Position numbers and translations under genes: made by a program. Positions 12,240-61,115 of a stretch of DNA of 64,000 bases are shown here, piece by piece. The stretch comes from Cloacibacterium caeni (lineage in GTDB: Bacteria; Bacteroidota; Bacteroidia; Flavobacteriales; Weeksellaceae). The first letter of the stretch is position 1. Every line of letters starts with the position of its first letter. Under the pieces are notes generated by a model. That model was not told where the DNA came from. It saw nothing but the letters and a program-made list of their open reading frames with translations, and searched no databases. The stretch is taken from NCBI RefSeq assembly GCF_907163105.1, contig NZ_OU015321.1, positions 806,001 to 870,000 of the forward strand, written 5' to 3'.

Positions 12240-13217
12240 GTGTCAAACATCGTAGAAGAAATCAAGAAGCCGATTAACGAAGAAATGAAACTTTTTGAAC
12301 AAAAGTTTTATGAATCAATGCAAAGCAGAGTTCCTTTGCTTGATAAAGTTACTCGTTTTATTGTAACCACCAAAGGAAAGCAAATGCGACCAATGTTTGT
12401 ATTTCTTACCGCTCAATTGGTAGGAAATGTAAACGAAAAGACGTTTCGAGGCGCTTCTATGATTGAGTTGATTCACACCGCTACTTTGGTTCATGATGAC
12501 GTAGTAGACGAAAGTTTTAAACGTCGTAATTTCTTTTCTATCAATGCTTTATGGAAAAATAAAATTGCAGTTTTAGTAGGTGATTATTTGCTTTCTAAGT
12601 CAGTTTTACTTTCTACTGATAATAAAGATTTTGATTTATTGGCTGTTATTTCTAGAACCATCAGAGAAATGTCTGAAGGAGAGTTGCTTCAGTTAGAAAA
12701 AGCTAGAAAATTAGACATTACAGAAGACGTTTACTACGAAATTATTCGTCAAAAAACGGCTACACTTATTGCTGCTTGTTGCGAAGTAGGCGTTTTGTCT
12801 AATGGTGCTGATGAAGTTTTAGCCAAAAAAATGCAGGATTTCGGTACTTATACGGGAATGGCGTTCCAAATCAAAGACGATTTGTTTGATTATCTTTCTA
12901 AAAATATAATTGGAAAACCAGTTGGGATTGACATAAAAGAGCAAAAGATGACTTTGCCACTTATTCATACTTTAAAAACGGCGAATGAAGCTGATAGAAA
13001 GTACTACTTCAATACTATTAAGAGATATAATAACGACCAAAAACGCGTAAAAGAGCTGATAGAATTTGTGAAAAAATCTGGAGGATTGGATTATGCAATT
13101 GGAGTGATGAAAGATTTTCAGCAAAAAGCAAAAGATATCCTTGCAGAATTCCCTGATTCTGAAGCGAAACATTCTCTTAATTTGATGCTTGATTACGTTA
13201 TAGAGAGGAAGTTTTAA
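12240..13217 (+). CDS. Trans-polyprenyl diphosphate synthase
   Basis: A 325-residue all-helical prenyl synthase that chains isopentenyl diphosphate units onto an allylic primer, supplying the menaquinone side chain. KGKQMRP (about 46-52), the first aspartate-rich motif HDDVVDE (85-91) and the second, FQIKDDLFDY, are present. I choose the GTG at 12240, because the alternative TTG at 12195 lies inside a -7-like TATATTTG (12190-12197) and would precede the transcription start. Its 3' end overlaps the convergent AraC-type gene by 20 bp. Confidence 0.85.
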   Translation: MSNIVEEIKKPINEEMKLFEQKFYESMQSRVPLLDKVTRFIVTTKGKQMRPMFVFLTAQLVGNVNEKTFRGASMIELIHTATLVHDDVVDESFKRRNFFSINALWKNKIAVLVGDYLLSKSVLLSTDNKDFDLLAVISRTIREMSEGELLQLEKARKLDITEDVYYEIIRQKTATLIAACCEVGVLSNGADEVLAKKMQDFGTYTGMAFQIKDDLFDYLSKNIIGKPVGIDIKEQKMTLPLIHTLKTANEADRKYYFNTIKRYNNDQKRVKELIEFVKKSGGLDYAIGVMKDFQQKAKDILAEFPDSEAKHSLNLMLDYVIERKF

Positions 13218-14916
13218 TATTTTCCTTCATCATTTTAATGAAATACGAAGGTTTAATCTCAAATTTTCTCTGGAAGTTATCCGAAAATGCTTCTGCATTC
13301 GTAAATCCTGCAATATTTGCTAATTCTTTGATGTCTCTATTTAAGTATTTATGTTCTGTTTTGAGCAATTCCACAATATATTCTAATCTTAAGTCATTGA
13401 GATAATTACTAAAATTTTTCTCTTTATAAACATTAATAATTTTAGATAGATAAGTTGGGTTGGTTCCCAGTTTTTCACTGAGTAATTTTTGAGTGATTTT
13501 ATAATCCAGAAATTGTTGTTCCTTTTCGAAAATTTCTAGCTGTTCTAGTATGTATGTAATGGTTGATTCACTAAGTCCCGTGATTTTTGGAATTACAGTT
13601 TTATTCTCTTCAACAATTGTAACTGGGATTTTCTCTATTTCTGTATTTTTTGATATGATTTGTTCAAAACGCTCTTTATATTTCCTTTGCATTTGGAAAT
13701 ATTTATAAGTAGAAAAAGAAATAATCAGTATACTTAATATAATTATGAAAAGCGTGAGGTATTGATGAATTTTTAAGCTATTTTCAATACTGTTTTTCTC
13801 GTCAATCAATTTTTTTGTATCATATTCTTTATGAATTTTGGCAAAAAGATATTTGTAGTTCTTTTCGTAGGATTTATCTAGAGACATTAATTTATTAATG
13901 TATTCGAGTTGCTTATCTGTGTTATTTTTAGAAGCGTAATATTCTATAAGTAATTCATAGGCAGGTCTGAACTGAGGATCTTGATTTTTGTCTTTGTGAT
14001 ATTCTTTGTCTAATTTTTCGAAATATTTTACAGCTTCTTTTTTATTTCTTAATTTCCAATAAGACATTCCTATGTAGAAAATTTCTGTATAGTGAGGCCA
14101 ATTGTCTTGGTATAAATGCTGTGCTTTTTTAAGTTTATTAATTGCTACAGAATAGTTTTTAAGATAATAAGCATCAGTTCCTTCGCAAGAAATAAAATAT
14201 GGTATTAAATATTTTGCATTGTTTTTATTTATGAATTCATATGCTTCTTTAAGTAAAGTTATATTTTCTGAATTTTTTTTAAGTTTTGTATTACAATCAA
14301 TTAAACTCATAAGAGAATAGCTGTAGTATATTTCATAATCATCTCCTAGTTCATTGATTTCATTACTTCTGAAAAAATTAACACATTCTACTAAATCCTT
14401 TTTTGCTTCATTATACTGTCCTAATATTATTCTATTTTGGGCAATATAATATAGAGTCTTATGATTGATGTAATCATTTTTTACATTATTTAAGTATTCT
14501 TTTGCCTTTAAAATAAAATTTAATGCGGGCTCATATTGAAAATGATCCATAAGAAAAACACCTTTATTGAGTAAAGCATCAGAAATAAGTTCGTTATTCT
14601 TAGTTTTTTTAGCAACTATTATTGCACTATCTACATATTTACTTGCTAAATTATATTTATTTGCTTTGCTAGAATATCTGTAAGCATAAAATAAGGCTTG
14701 AAGATTATTTTCTTTTTTGGATTTTTTAATATAATATTTAATTAATGGCAAAGCATTTTGGTTAGAAGAATTTAAACTATCAATTTTATGTTCTAATTCT
14801 AAAAAAGATAAATCTTCTAATTTTTTTTCTTGAGCGTTTACTGAGATTTGGAAAAAAAACAGAACTGTAAGAAATAAGTTTTTGATTATTAGATAGTTAT
14901 TGGTTTTTGTTTTCAC
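13198..14916 (-). CDS. Membrane TPR-AraC regulator, paralogue A
   Basis: A 572-residue protein in four parts: signal peptide or anchor (to about residue 29, ending VNAQ), a TPR-like helical region (about 30-375), one transmembrane helix (about 386-404), and a cytosolic AraC-type DNA-binding domain at the C-terminus (about 470-570). The HTH helices are seen in LSEKLGTNPTYLSKIINVY and LANIAGFTNAEAFSDNFQRK. This layout predicts a one-component sensor: periplasmic TPR sensing a ligand or protein, HTH acting on DNA. It is about 90% alike to paralogue B over the last 200 residues, including a stretch of about 118 identical bases, whereas the TPR part has diverged. Its 3' end overlaps the prenyl synthase gene by 20 bp. 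Confidence 0.82.
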   Translation of the reverse strand: MKTKTNNYLIIKNLFLTVLFFFQISVNAQEKKLEDLSFLELEHKIDSLNSSNQNALPLIKYYIKKSKKENNLQALFYAYRYSSKANKYNLASKYVDSAIIVAKKTKNNELISDALLNKGVFLMDHFQYEPALNFILKAKEYLNNVKNDYINHKTLYYIAQNRIILGQYNEAKKDLVECVNFFRSNEINELGDDYEIYYSYSLMSLIDCNTKLKKNSENITLLKEAYEFINKNNAKYLIPYFISCEGTDAYYLKNYSVAINKLKKAQHLYQDNWPHYTEIFYIGMSYWKLRNKKEAVKYFEKLDKEYHKDKNQDPQFRPAYELLIEYYASKNNTDKQLEYINKLMSLDKSYEKNYKYLFAKIHKEYDTKKLIDEKNSIENSLKIHQYLTLFIIILSILIISFSTYKYFQMQRKYKERFEQIISKNTEIEKIPVTIVEENKTVIPKITGLSESTITYILEQLEIFEKEQQFLDYKITQKLLSEKLGTNPTYLSKIINVYKEKNFSNYLNDLRLEYIVELLKTEHKYLNRDIKELANIAGFTNAEAFSDNFQRKFEIKPSYFIKMMKENIKTSSL

Positions 14917-14929
14917 TTTTCACTTTTCT

Positions 14930-15109
14930 ACAATGATAAAACAAAAAATTGGAATAAGAAATATGATATTTTTTCAAAAAATCCCGGTTGATTTTTATGA
15001 ATTCCGAGTTCAGTTTTTAGTAAGGAAATAATGAAAAGAGTAGTTTTGTTTCATCTTAAAACACAATAAAAAGAGGTAAGATTTAATGACCAAAAAAAAC
15101 ATTACTATT
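14930..15109. repeat. 180-bp duplicated intergenic block, copy 1
   Basis: By eye this block is identical base for base to 16912-17091. It holds the region upstream of regulator A on the minus strand (with TATCATTG, one mismatch to a -7 element, near 14930) and, on the plus strand, TAGTTTTG at 15041-15048, a perfect -7 match without a clear -33. The first codons of a short open frame lie at its right end. Confidence 0.85.
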
Positions 15110-15167
15110 CCGAATAGTAAAGTATTTCTTCAAGGGGACTTCAACATGAAAATGTTGAAGTTTTTTT
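15055..15167 (+). ncRNA. Candidate small RNA or short leader ORF, unit A
   Basis: Inferred from a plus-strand -7 element (15041-15048) and a strong intrinsic terminator (15138-15167) with nothing else between. A 36-codon frame starts at the ATG at 15086 (MTKKNITIPNSKVFLQ) but its second half runs through the terminator hairpin, so it may be a leader peptide or not translated. Start position is approximate. The same unit recurs upstream of regulator B. Confidence 0.4.
15138..15167 (+). terminator. Intrinsic terminator of the candidate small RNA, unit A
   Basis: ACTTCAACAT, tetraloop GAAA, ATGTTGAAGT, then a T run. It points along the plus strand, opposite to both flanking regulator genes. Confidence 0.8.
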
Positions 15168-15179
15168 ATTTAGATGTTT

Positions 15180-16898
15180 TTAAGAATGTGTTTTAATATT
15201 TTCCTTCATCATTTTAATGAAGTACGAAGGTTTAATTTCAAATTTTCTTTGGAAATTATCAGAAAATGCTTCTGCATTTGTAAATCCTGCAATATTTGCC
15301 AATTCTTTAATTTCTTTTTCTAAAAATTGATGCTCTGTTTTGAGTAATTCTACAATATATTCTAACCTTAAATCATTGAGGTAATTACTGAAATTTTTCC
15401 CTTTATAAGCATTAATAATTTTGGAAAGATAAGTAGGATTGGTTCCCAATTTTTCACTGAGTAATTTTTGAGTGATTTTAGAATCCAGAAATTGTTGTTC
15501 TTTTTCGAAAATATCTAGCTGTTCTAGAATATATGCAACAGTGGATTCACTAAGTCCAGCGATTTTAGGAGTTATTGTTTTACTTTTTTCAACAATAGTA
15601 ACTGGGATTTTCTCAATTTCTGTATTTTTTGAAATGATTTGCTCAAAACGTTCTTTATATTTCCTTTGCATTTGGAAATATTTATATGTAGAAAACGAAA
15701 TCAAAACAATGCTGATAATGATTACAAAAAGTGTGAGGTATTGATGAATTTTTAAGCTGTTTTCAATACTATTTTTCTCGTCAATAAGCTTCTGAGAATC
15801 ATATTCTTTATGAATTTTGGCAAAAAGATATTTGTAGTTCTTTTCGTAGGATTTATCTAGAGACATTAATTTATTAATGTATTCGAGTTGCTTATCTGTG
15901 TTATTTTTAGAAGCGTAGTATTCTATAAGTAATTCATAGGCAGGTCTATATTGAGGATTTTTATTTACTCCTATATAATATTCTTTGTCTAATTTCTCGA
16001 AATATTTTACAGCTTCTTTTTTGTTTCCTAATTTCCAATAAGACAAGCCTATGTAGAAAATTTCTGTGTAGTGTTGCCATTGGTCATTATAAGAATCTAA
16101 AGATTTTTGTAAATATTTAATTGCTGAAAGAAAGTTATTATTATAATATGCTTCAGTTCCCAATGATGAAACAAAATAAGGATAATATTCTTTTAAATTT
16201 TTCTTTTTAATGTAATTGAAAGCTTCATTTAATAGAGAAACGTTTTCTTTGTGATTTTTAATTTTGCTATTTGAGTCAATTAATGACAAAAGAGAATACA
16301 TATAGAATAATTCATTATCAACCCCCAATTTATTTTCTTTTAGATTTGATCTAAAGTATTTTACACAAGACTTTAATTCTTTATTAGCTTCTGAATTTAA
16401 GCCTAAATAAATTTTATTTTGAGCAATAAAATATTTTGACTTATTAATCAAATAATAATCTCCAATTTTAGATGCTACATTATGTGCCTGAATAATATAT
16501 TTTAAAGCTTCCTTATGCATAAAATTATCCATAAGTGTGTAGGATCTATTAATTAATGACTCTGTAATTAGTTTTTTATTTTTATTTTTTTGAGCTATAA
16601 ATAGTATACTATCTGAATATTTTAAATTTTCAGGAAATACAGAGTAACCACTTGCATATCTATAAGCGTAAATTAATGCTTCATCATTTTTTTCTTCTTT
16701 AGATTTTTTTATATAATGATTTATATATATCCACAATTCTTCCTTTCTGTTATAAGAACTATCAATTTTTTTTTCTAATTCTAAAAAAGATAAATCTTCT
16801 AATTTTTTTCCTTGAGCATTTAACTGAATGTGGAACAAAAATAAAAGTGCTATTGTTAAATGTTTGATAATTAGGTGTTTATGTTTATAGATTTCCAA
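15180..16898 (-). CDS. Membrane TPR-AraC regulator, paralogue B
   Basis: A 572-residue paralogue of A with the same plan: N-terminal hydrophobic export signal ending LNAQ, TPR-like region, one transmembrane helix (HQYLTLFVIIISIVLISFST) and a C-terminal AraC HTH domain. The last 260 residues are almost the same as in A, while the sensor half is only about half identical. The pattern suggests recent duplication or gene conversion of the output half and diversification of the sensing half. The short intergenic stretches on both sides carry the duplicated blocks. Confidence 0.82.
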   Translation of the reverse strand: MEIYKHKHLIIKHLTIALLFLFHIQLNAQGKKLEDLSFLELEKKIDSSYNRKEELWIYINHYIKKSKEEKNDEALIYAYRYASGYSVFPENLKYSDSILFIAQKNKNKKLITESLINRSYTLMDNFMHKEALKYIIQAHNVASKIGDYYLINKSKYFIAQNKIYLGLNSEANKELKSCVKYFRSNLKENKLGVDNELFYMYSLLSLIDSNSKIKNHKENVSLLNEAFNYIKKKNLKEYYPYFVSSLGTEAYYNNNFLSAIKYLQKSLDSYNDQWQHYTEIFYIGLSYWKLGNKKEAVKYFEKLDKEYYIGVNKNPQYRPAYELLIEYYASKNNTDKQLEYINKLMSLDKSYEKNYKYLFAKIHKEYDSQKLIDEKNSIENSLKIHQYLTLFVIIISIVLISFSTYKYFQMQRKYKERFEQIISKNTEIEKIPVTIVEKSKTITPKIAGLSESTVAYILEQLDIFEKEQQFLDSKITQKLLSEKLGTNPTYLSKIINAYKGKNFSNYLNDLRLEYIVELLKTEHQFLEKEIKELANIAGFTNAEAFSDNFQRKFEIKPSYFIKMMKENIKTHS

Positions 16899-16911
16899 TT
16901 TTAGTTTTTTT

Positions 16912-17091
16912 ACAATGATAAAACAAAAAATTGGAATAAGAAATATGATATTTTTTCAAAAAATCCCGGTTGATTTTTATGAATTCCGAGTTCAGTTTTT
17001 AGTAAGGAAATAATGAAAAGAGTAGTTTTGTTTCATCTTAAAACACAATAAAAAGAGGTAAGATTTAATGACCAAAAAAAACATTACTATT
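16912..17091. repeat. 180-bp duplicated intergenic block, copy 2
   Basis: Identical to 14930-15109 as far as can be read. The plus-strand TAGTTTTG is at 17022-17029. Confidence 0.85.
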
Positions 17092-17150
17092 AAGAATAGT
17101 AAAGTTCTTCTTCAAAGGGAGCTTCAACATGAAAATGTTGAAGTTTTTTT
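17036..17150 (+). ncRNA. Candidate small RNA or short leader ORF, unit B
   Basis: Second copy of the unit at 15055-15167. Its frame from the ATG at 17068 begins MTKKNITIKNSKVLLQ but one extra base before the hairpin shifts it relative to unit A, which argues against strong selection on a peptide C-terminus. The hairpin itself is conserved. Confidence 0.4.
17122..17150 (+). terminator. Intrinsic terminator of the candidate small RNA, unit B
   Basis: CTTCAACAT, GAAA, ATGTTGAAG, then a T run; same hairpin as at 15138-15167. Confidence 0.8.
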
Positions 17151-17163
17151 ATTTAGATGTTTT

Positions 17164-18927
17164 TTAAGAATGAGTTTTAATATTTTCCTTCATCATCTTA
17201 ATAAAGTAAGAAGGTTTAATCTCAAATTTTCGTTGGAAATTATCAGAAAAATTCTGTGTATTAGTGAATCCAGATAGTAATGCTAATTCTTTGACATCCA
17301 TATTAAGATATTTTGCATCAATTTTCATTAGGCTAATTAAATATTCAAGTCTTAAATCATTGATATAAATACTCACATTTTTGCCTTTATATACATTTAT
17401 TATTCTTGACAAGTAGGTAGAATTAGTATTTAAAATTTCACTTAATAATCCTTTAGAGACTTGATTATCTAGGAATTTATTTCCTTTTTCAAAATCATCT
17501 AGTTTATTTAAAATATTTTCTACAATTAAAGGATTTAGACCAGGTATTTTATTATAATATTCTAAATCAATAGAATTTTTAGGTTTAGGAAAATTAATAT
17601 TTAGTTCACTATTGCTAAATACTTCTTCTGCTATATCTACTTCATTTACTTTCTCTTCTGGTTCTTTATTTTTATTTGGAATTTCTGAAATAATTTTTTC
17701 AAATTTTTCTTTATATATTTTTTGTAAGGAATTGTATCTATTCCAAAAAAATAATGTAGCTAAAATAGCAAAAAGTAAAATAGTACTTATTATTGTTCTT
17801 TGTGTTTTTAAAGAGTTTTCAATTTTATTTTTTTCAATAATGAGTTTTTTGGTGTCGTATTCTTTATTAATTTTAGAAAATAGATATTTGTAATTTTTTT
17901 CGTAATTTCTATCAAGAGCCATTAATTTATTGATATATTCCAATTGTTTATCTCTATTACCAATGGAGTCATTATACTTAATTAATAATTCATAAGCAGG
18001 TCTGAATTGTGGATCTAATTTTTTAGTTTCATTATAATCTTTATCAATTTCTTCAAAATATTTAACTGCTACATCAGTTTTTCCTAATTTCCAATTAGAC
18101 ATTCCTAGATAAAAAACTTCTACAAAATGTGGCCAATAATCATTGTAAAGGCGTAATGATTGACTAAGTTTTGTTATGGCTAAATTATAATTTCCTAAAT
18201 AATAAGCGTCTGTACCTTCAGATGAAATGAAATATGGAATATAATTTTCTAATTTATTTTTATTTAGATAATTAATGATTTCTTTTATTAGTGTTGTGTT
18301 TTCAATTTGTTTTCCAATTCTTGTATTGGTATCTATGTAACTCATCATAGAATATATATAGAATTGTTGGTAATCTTTTCCATACTGGGAATTATTTAAG
18401 TTTTCTTTAAAATAATTCATACATGAACTTAATTCTACATTTGCTTCTTCATACAGGCCAAGATAAATTTTATTTTGGGCCATATAGTATTTTGTTTTAT
18501 TATTAAAATATTCATCATCAATTTTTAATGAATATTGATTGGCTATCAAAATATCATCTAATGCTTTTTGATGTTTTGATTCATCCATATATATAATGCC
18601 TCTATTAAGATAAGCTATTGTTAGGAGTTTAGCATTTTGTGATTTTTTTGCAACATTTAATGCACTATCTGCATATTTAAAGTTTTTGGGATGTTTCGCA
18701 TAAACACTTGCAATTTTATAAGCATTAAGTAGCCCCTCTTCATTCTTGTTTTTTTTTGTTTCATCTATGTAGTGATAGATAAGCTTCCACATTTTTGGGG
18801 GATTATTACTAATTGATGTAATTTTAACTTCTATTTTGTCATAATTTTTAGTCAATTGCGCATTTAATAGTATAGTAAATGCTAAACTAAAACTAAAGCT
18901 AAAAATATATTTTAAATAAAAGCTCAT
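17164..18927 (-). CDS. Membrane TPR-AraC regulator, paralogue C
   Basis: A 587-residue, more distant paralogue of A and B. Signal sequence ending LLNAQ, TPR-like region, one transmembrane helix (ISTILLFAILATLFFWN), a longer acidic linker, and an AraC HTH domain that ends with the same EIKPSYFIKMMKENIKT tail. It is first in the tandem array and divergent from the small lipoprotein gene at 19102; the 174 bp between them hold the lipoprotein promoter. It could regulate that gene, but no operator can be named. Confidence 0.8.
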   Translation of the reverse strand: MSFYLKYIFSFSFSLAFTILLNAQLTKNYDKIEVKITSISNNPPKMWKLIYHYIDETKKNKNEEGLLNAYKIASVYAKHPKNFKYADSALNVAKKSQNAKLLTIAYLNRGIIYMDESKHQKALDDILIANQYSLKIDDEYFNNKTKYYMAQNKIYLGLYEEANVELSSCMNYFKENLNNSQYGKDYQQFYIYSMMSYIDTNTRIGKQIENTTLIKEIINYLNKNKLENYIPYFISSEGTDAYYLGNYNLAITKLSQSLRLYNDYWPHFVEVFYLGMSNWKLGKTDVAVKYFEEIDKDYNETKKLDPQFRPAYELLIKYNDSIGNRDKQLEYINKLMALDRNYEKNYKYLFSKINKEYDTKKLIIEKNKIENSLKTQRTIISTILLFAILATLFFWNRYNSLQKIYKEKFEKIISEIPNKNKEPEEKVNEVDIAEEVFSNSELNINFPKPKNSIDLEYYNKIPGLNPLIVENILNKLDDFEKGNKFLDNQVSKGLLSEILNTNSTYLSRIINVYKGKNVSIYINDLRLEYLISLMKIDAKYLNMDVKELALLSGFTNTQNFSDNFQRKFEIKPSYFIKMMKENIKTHS

Positions 18928-19101: not shown

Positions 19102-19359
19102 ATGAAGAAAATTTTAGTATCTACCGTATGTTTCTTAGTTGTATTAATCTCATGTAGACAGCAAGAAGATGTTTCACTTTCTCAAGAAGATTTAGCTAAC
19201 ATTAAGCTGATTCAAAAAAATAGAAATTATAGAAAGGCTAATAATATTACAAATATTAAAACTGATACAGTTTATAGAACTCAAACATTAGATATGGGTA
19301 CAGTAGAGTTAGATGTAATATCTGAGGTAGATCCTAATAAACCACCAAAACAACAATAA
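19102..19359 (+). CDS. Small lipoprotein, member 1 of a local peptide family
   Basis: 85 residues, MKKILVSTVCFLVVLISC with a lipobox ending at Cys18, so a lipid-anchored protein is predicted. After the anchor come a helix with LSQEDLANIKLIQKNRNYRK and a proline-rich tail. The LS..D.....IQ..R..R pattern is shared with the protein encoded at 19561. I do not recognise a named family. It faces the regulator C gene and has a perfect promoter and a terminator of its own. It may be a target, partner or ligand precursor of the TPR regulators; this is inference from arrangement. Confidence 0.7.
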   Translation: MKKILVSTVCFLVVLISCRQQEDVSLSQEDLANIKLIQKNRNYRKANNITNIKTDTVYRTQTLDMGTVELDVISEVDPNKPPKQQ

Positions 19360-19406
19360 ATCTAATAAAAAAGTAAAATAAATTTTTTTTTCATCGTTTG
19401 TGTTTT

Positions 19407-19447
19407 CTCCTTTCGCTGTTTGTTCTCAGAGCAGCGAAGGAGATTTT
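19407..19447 (+). terminator. Terminator hairpin of small lipoprotein 1
   Basis: CTCCTTTCGCTG pairs with CAGCGAAGGAG (one bulged T) across a 12-nt loop, followed by ATTTTT. Together with about 45 bp before it, this region is nearly the same as 19799-19886. Confidence 0.75.
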
Positions 19448-19560
19448 TAAAAGAAAATTTTAAAATACAATTTAAAGGAATATCTAAGATGTACTTTGTT
19501 AAATTCATAACCATATTTTAATCTTAGAAATTTAAAATATTAATTTAAAAATTTACTGTT

Positions 19561-19782: not shown

Positions 19783-19844
19783 AGTGCAGCTAGAAATAAA
19801 TCTAATAAAAGTAAAATAAAATTTTTTTTCATCGTTTGTGTTTT

Positions 19845-19886
19845 CTCCTTTCGCTGCTTGTTCTCAGAGCAGCGGAGGAGATTTTT
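19845..19886 (+). terminator. Terminator hairpin of small exported protein 2
   Basis: CTCCTTTCGCTG with CAGCGGAGGAG, then ATTTTT. The only stem change relative to the first copy is A to G, which keeps pairing as G-U. Confidence 0.75.
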
Positions 19887-19937
19887 AAAGAACATCATCA
19901 CAATTATTCATACATTCATATTAATTAAGTTAAGCTC

Positions 19938-45884: not shown

Positions 45885-46101
45885 CTGCGTTCACCGCGCT
45901 AACGATGGAAGCGGCATCCTTTTTTAAATATTCAGCCTCGGAAAATAAGTTTGGAGAAAATTTAAAAAAGATATAGCGGACAGCGTGTTAAAGCGCCATA
46001 AAAAAAATCCATTCAACAAAGTGCTGAATGGATTCTGTATTTTGAACACCCCGTCAAAATTTTTAATTAAAAATTTTGCCACCCCTCTAAAAGAGGGGAA
46101 T
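45885..46101 (-). repeat. Composite intergenic repeat, copy A
   Basis: Read on the minus strand it starts CCCCTCTTTTAGAGG with GTGGCA, a palindromic spacer and TGACGGGGTG, then (after the fabI terminator) GGCGCTTTAACACGCTGTCC, GCTATATCTTTTTTAAAT, a variable core, AAAAAAGGATGCCGCTTCCA, and ends TCGTTAGCGCGGTGAACGCA. The same modules in the same order are at 60943-61115 on the plus strand. It fills the 266-bp gap between the propeller gene and fabI. Confidence 0.8.
46001..46034 (-). terminator. Intrinsic terminator of fabI
   Basis: On the minus strand: AATCCATTCA, loop GCACTTTG, TTGAATGGATT, then seven T. It lies between the two modules of the composite repeat, where copy B has no hairpin of this kind. 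Confidence 0.8.
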
Positions 46102-49612: not shown

Positions 49613-49737
49613 ATCAGTTTTTTATGAAGTAGAGTAGGTGATGAGTATCATAAATTTTGTAAGAGAGTATTAAAAATAACAATCTTTGCATAAATATTTA
49701 AGGACTATATTTTACTAAATACAGAAAACACAAATGA

Positions 49738-49772
49738 TGAAAAAACCAGCTAATTTTTAGCTGGTTTTTTTA
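49738..49772. terminator. Bidirectional terminator
   Basis: AAAAAACCAGCTAA, short loop, TTAGCTGGTTTTTTT between the convergent TPR regulator and nucleoside phosphorylase genes. Confidence 0.85.
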
Positions 49773-60942: not shown

Positions 60943-61115
60943 TTCCCCTCTTTTAGAGGAGTGGCATTCAGATTTTCTGAATGACGGGGTGTTTTTTGGC
61001 GCTTTAACACGCTGTCCGCTGTATCTTTTTTAAATTTTAGTTCTCTCTTTTAGGAGAGTCAGTGAGGAAAAAATTTAAAAAAGGATGCCGCTTCCATCGT
61101 TAGCGCAAACGCAGA
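60943..61115 (+). repeat. Composite intergenic repeat, copy B
   Basis: Modules in order: CCCCTCTTTTAGAGG, GTGGCA, inner palindrome TTCAGA/TCTGAA, TGACGGGGTG, GGCGCTTTAACACGCTGTCC, GCTGTATCTTTTTTAAAT, a variable core, AAAAAAGGATGCCGCTTCCA and TCGTTAGCGCAAACGCAG. Same order as copy A at 45885-46101 but on the opposite strand. It fills most of the 303-bp gap 60914-61216; the remainder (61116-61216) is AT-rich and ends in AATCTA-type words. Confidence 0.8.

Follow-up and report, generated by a model that had tools for sequence, protein, structure and literature searches.

A small RNA candidate in identical control regions of tandem TPR/AraC-type regulator genes in Cloacibacterium caeni

The regulator locus

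We analyzed a 64,000-nt stretch of the single-contig Cloacibacterium caeni genome (NZ_OU015321.1, positions 806,001 to 870,000), referred to here as the window, in which three regulator genes (R1, R2, and R3) lie in tandem on the minus strand, with two identical intergenic blocks sitting between them. The features, in window coordinates, are as follows.

13198 to 14916, minus strand: regulator R1, with a signal-like N-terminal stretch, a TPR sensor, one transmembrane helix, and HTH_18 (Pfam; hydropathy)
14929 to 15109, either strand: identical block, copy 1 (exact match)
14930 to 14937, minus strand: predicted -7 box of R1, TATCATTG (TAAATTTG in G001/G004), its position kept in nine copies and in the lipoprotein-linked relatives
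14971 to 15012, either strand: two 21-bp direct repeats (14971 to 14991 and 14992 to 15012), predicted operator, copy 1 (21-bp lag; low divergence)
15041 to 15048, plus strand: -7 box TAGTTTTG of the predicted RNA, copy 1 (matches TAnnTTTG; conserved)
15053 to 15168, plus strand: predicted small RNA, copy 1, ca. 116 nt, with a hairpin at 15102 to 15120 and a terminator at 15139 to 15160 plus a T-run (covariance model; folding z -3.1, single-strand fold of the predicted RNA versus dinucleotide shuffles)
15180 to 16898, minus strand: regulator R2, a paralogue of R1 (Pfam; C-terminal tree)
16911 to 17091, either strand: identical block, copy 2 (exact match)
16953 to 16994, either strand: predicted operator repeats, copy 2, within the identical block
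17023 to 17030, plus strand: -7 box TAGTTTTG of the predicted RNA, copy 2 (as copy 1)
17035 to 17151, plus strand: predicted small RNA, copy 2, ca. 117 nt (covariance model; folding z -4.4, calculated likewise)
17164 to 18927, minus strand: regulator R3, of a sister clade (Pfam; C-terminal tree)
19105 to 19359, plus strand: small lipoprotein gene (CRQxED...KPP) divergent from R3, in the same place as the RNA of R1/R2

The three regulators are TPR proteins with a C-terminal DNA-binding domain of the AraC/XylS type (HTH_18/HTH_AraC; PF12833 above the Pfam cut-off in all of them). Hydropathy indicated a hydrophobic helix near residue 380 in R1, R2, and R3, and an N-terminal signal-like stretch in R1 and R2. 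The small lipoprotein gene (CRQxED...PPxK) was found divergent from all R3-type regulators examined and from the single locus regulator in G017 and Chryseobacterium, always behind the same layout as the RNA: regulator -7 box, repeats, and TAnnTTTG box. In a tree of the C-terminal halves, the nine RNA-linked regulators grouped in a single clade (100/99) that excluded the 11 lipoprotein-linked regulators. Since the lipoprotein gene occupies this same place in the sister regulators and the tree splits the two kinds, one regulator clade of the genus has the RNA in place of the lipoprotein gene.

Identical blocks in a mosaic locus

The two blocks share 181 nt without any difference in an exact-match comparison, at an offset of 1982, and a search of the whole genome (2.72 Mb) recovered exactly two copies. 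An earlier, sequence-only reading had described them as identical over 180 bp next to diverged coding DNA, and both points were confirmed. To the left of the block 16 of 36 sites differ between the copies, and to the right 7 of 31, plus one gap. Between R1 and R2, 25% of the four-fold sites differ in the C-terminal half, and the N-terminal halves are only 48% identical in protein, which is not what duplication of the whole unit with equal identity throughout would leave. The flanks of copy 1 resemble G003/G006 on the left and G003 on the right, those of copy 2 G005 on the left and G005/G006 on the right, while the block itself, identical within the C. caeni genome, differs from G006, G003, and G005 by 3, 7, and 7 substitutions, respectively. 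Such mosaic flanks around an identical block fit gene conversion of a short tract. The sequence-only reading had left the choice between recent gene conversion and selection on an RNA or operator, and there are signs of each: abrupt edges and flanks of different cross-species lineages for the former, low divergence of operator and terminator (see below) for the latter.

The block copies appear to be kept identical by gene conversion in a locus where sensor domains swap between species. When R3 of G003 was compared with that of G005, the N-terminal half showed 0/61 differences at four-fold sites and the C-terminal half 24/71; the near-identical tract runs on through the lipoprotein gene. Another N-terminal cassette, common to the R1 genes of G003 and G006, stops short of the block, and trees of the regulator N-terminal and C-terminal halves disagree. 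Along 13198 to 18927, TPR sensor halves were exchanged between species as cassettes. In R3, the divergent lipoprotein gene is part of the exchanged tract, as though the receptor were moving together with its partner.

This R3-lipoprotein pair recalls the RRNPP (Rap-Phr) systems, in which TPR receptors are found with small exported peptides. Here too a TPR receptor lies beside a gene for a small exported protein, both are fast-evolving, and co-transfer of sensor and lipoprotein is seen in the sequences compared. However, R3 is a membrane AraC-type protein, the lipoprotein is not a processed Phr peptide, and no homology is apparent.

Control region and predicted small RNA

Reading along the plus strand, the region comprises the R1 -7 box, the 21-bp repeats, TAGTTTTG, an A/purine-rich stretch, hairpin 1, and the terminator. 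TAnnTTTG is the -7 box of flavobacterial promoters; in Flavobacterium psychrophilum it is of the sigma-A type and spans -12 to -5 (PMC9723704). TAGTTTTG at 15041 to 15048 fits this box, so the RNA start is expected near 15053. On the other side, the conserved plus-strand TACAATGATA at 14929 has as its reverse complement TATCATTG, which fits the -7 box for R1.

Between the two boxes, a lag of 21 bp was the strongest self-similarity in both the RNA-linked and the lipoprotein-linked promoter classes and was reached by 0 of 500 shuffles, a contrast that kinship within each class inflates somewhat. AraC acts at 21-bp direct half-sites (araI1-I2), and the locus resembles the AraC/XylS type in its HTH_18 domain, its divergent layout, and the paired direct repeats 21 bp apart, which stand as tandem half-sites just upstream of the target promoter. 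The difference lies in the sensor, which in R1/R2 is a TPR domain predicted to be periplasmic and joined by one transmembrane helix, and in an operator that is a prediction.

The first ca. 57 nt of the predicted RNA lie inside the block and the terminator just outside it. Because the identical block stops before the terminator, promoter and operator make up about two-thirds of it, and only its last ca. 57 nt are RNA. The blocks had been taken to encode divergent small RNAs; the RNA part of that proposal holds, with the qualification that most of the block is promoter/operator and that the RNA extends past it to the terminator. The block is thus probably the divergent control region of the regulator plus the 5' part of the predicted small RNA.

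The terminator has a 9-bp stem (CTTCAACAT/ATGTTGAAG), a GAAA loop, and T7, running from 15139 to 15167 in copy 1 and ending at 17151 in copy 2. It begins 90 to 91 nt past the TAGTTTTG box in both copies, in line with the ca. 90 to 95 bp estimated before. A simple terminator scanner did not report this GAAA-loop hairpin; fold and sequence nonetheless show a terminator. Beyond the block, the two copies of the predicted RNA differ in loop and spacer. The 5' half carries the conserved A/purine-rich stretch AATAAAAAGAGGTAAGATTTAATGACC, and hairpin 1 has 7 to 8 bp (TTACTATT-nnn-AATAGTAA). As its paired positions are invariant among the seven close copies, except for the outermost pair, and the hairpin is missing in G001/G004, hairpin 1 is uninformative about covariation. 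In contrast, three pairs of the terminator stem are changed on both sides in G001/G004, compensatory changes that would nevertheless be expected in the terminator stem of any terminated transcript.

The block also holds a short frame, MTKKNITI(P/K)NSK, which is shifted between the copies after residue 16, owing to a one-base length difference. The ATG frame is present in four copies, but the ATG is lost in five of the nine: among the seven close copies, three (G005 and the two of G002) have ATA in its place, and it is missing from G001/G004. The frame of G003 carries a frameshift, as do the two C. caeni copies with respect to each other. Since neither the ATG nor the frame is conserved, we reject the reading of the block as coding for a short peptide (MTKKNITI...) as extremely improbable. 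Together with the compensatory changes in the terminator stem, this bears out the preference of the sequence-only reading for an RNA over a peptide.

At the sequence level, the predicted transcript has its own promoter, an intrinsic terminator, and no conserved frame. Rfam gave no family at the block at the gathering threshold and nothing credible in a relaxed scan (best weak hit, BTnc049, 23.5 versus a threshold of 81.9). These features support the predicted RNA as a non-coding, genus-specific small RNA candidate beside a regulator gene. It can be compared with Rfp18, an independent sRNA of Flavobacterium psychrophilum, and similar flavobacterial sRNAs, with which it shares a short structured intergenic form, conservation within a genus, and the TAnnTTTG -7 box (PMC9723704). 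However, the Cloacibacterium RNA is fixed beside the regulator that probably controls it and duplicated with it, and no sequence relation is apparent.

Distribution and conservation

With a covariance model, the region was found in 7/7 Cloacibacterium species genomes examined, always beside one regulator clade. Identity of the region is 97% in G006, 95 to 96% in G003, 92% in G005, and 87 to 89 and 82% for the two copies of G002, and G001 and G004 have a diverged but alignable version of the region. When the same model was run on about 140 further genomes from the family, it revealed no homologue; its single marginal match there was an unrelated terminator. Weak matches that we inspected (G138; positions 2531175 and 1083570 of the C. 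caeni genome) were terminators beside unrelated genes. Plasmid and viral collections searched for the region gave no match, and the locus did not come up in literature searches.

Substitutions per site between species were 0.000 in the terminator (for the species copies compared in the segment-divergence analysis), 0.029 in the operator, 0.051 in the RNA core motif, and 0.15 to 0.18 in the spacer. Four-fold sites of neighboring housekeeping genes were 12 to 20% different between species in most comparisons. For the more distant species, conservation of the RNA body exceeds that of four-fold sites only modestly and is below that of the operator. The covariation of the terminator stem, the invariant terminator, and the low operator divergence support the action of selection.

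Proposed function and alternatives

The anatomy of the locus is one of promoter-like boxes, repeats, a terminator, no frame, restriction to one genus and one regulator clade, and homogenized tandem copies. We consider that the best explanation as a whole (probability ca. 0.6) is a TPR/AraC-type membrane regulator with a divergent control region and a trans-acting RNA of ca. 116 nt, duplicated and homogenized. The fast-evolving TPR domain would read a periplasmic signal, and the HTH domain would bind the 21-bp repeats, control its own gene, and activate the plus-strand promoter as the regulated output, a role that the lipoprotein genes may likewise have in the sister clade. The small RNA, with its conserved A/purine-rich 5' half, would act in trans on mRNAs. 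The RNA module would have been duplicated along with the regulator, and recent gene conversion under purifying selection would have removed the differences between the blocks.

The main rival is that the transcript is a relic, retained only for the sake of the operator. The lipoprotein frame would have been lost after duplication of a regulator-lipoprotein pair, with the regulated promoter and terminator remaining and a transcript lacking its own function, and conservation of the block would be that of the operator and the regulator promoter. This would account for the lipoprotein gene at this place in all the sister regulators examined and for the operator being conserved more than the RNA body, and the 3' UTR of the G017 lipoprotein gene contains AATAAAAGGGTATAACTAATAACCA, which resembles the RNA core. 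However, a pure relic would not predict that seven species, over a large divergence, keep the transcript start, the core motif, and the terminator, nor does it sit well with an invariant terminator, and we regard it as a serious but rather unlikely possibility. A role in cis, with the plus-strand transcript being antisense to the 3' end of a convergent regulator mRNA (R2 or R3), or the terminator just insulating convergent genes, is suggested by the terminator of copy 1 ending 12 nt before the R2 stop codon. Moreover, G005 and G002_2 have an A-run on the other side of the hairpin, which could therefore terminate both ways. Yet on the C. caeni minus strand no U-run follows the hairpin, and the conserved part of the RNA is far from the overlap, which makes this role improbable.

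As for targets of the predicted trans-acting RNA, a genus-wide search for complements of its conserved core gave no excess over the control (9 sites versus 10 in the C. caeni genome). Pairing between AAAACACAA in the RNA and TTGTGTTTT in the conserved 3' UTR of the lipoprotein genes was discarded, as it is not kept in G001/G004 and its duplex energy is at shuffle level; RNA duplexes with lipoprotein mRNAs were no better than shuffled ones.

As an sRNA candidate, the RNA is new but of an ordinary kind; more interest attaches to the surrounding locus with its swapped sensors. In Bacteroidota, the mapping of small RNAs and of their regulators is still poor. Should R1/R2 control the expression of this RNA, it would give the phylum a genus-specific small RNA whose sensor is identified, in a locus that exchanges the sensor half of the regulator between species with operator and RNA constant, and the signal sensed by TPR/AraC membrane regulators would become directly testable. 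More speculatively, and in our opinion doubtful, one receptor class of this fast-evolving, horizontally swapped membrane TPR locus could report via a small self-encoded lipoprotein and the other via a constant RNA coupling many sensors to one output. Many interchangeable sensors would then feed one fixed output.

Other elements in the window

An 83-nt repeat (96%) with TTTTTCATCGTTTGTGTTTT was found at 19369 to 19451 and 19807 to 19889, where it makes up the 3' UTR and terminator of each of two genes for small exported proteins. In other species, the lipoprotein genes are followed by related 3' UTRs that share this core, and a further copy of a 3' UTR of this kind stands alone in G003, G005, and G006. 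The same TTTTTCATCATTTGTGTTTT motif appears at 49725 to 49744 on the minus strand, immediately past a terminator-like hairpin that lies behind an unrelated gene, and a fourth copy is located at genome position 1896384; the reversed control pattern had no match. The window also contains two Flavo-1 RNAs (RF01705), at 45888 to 45994 on the plus strand and at 61001 to 61109 on the minus strand.
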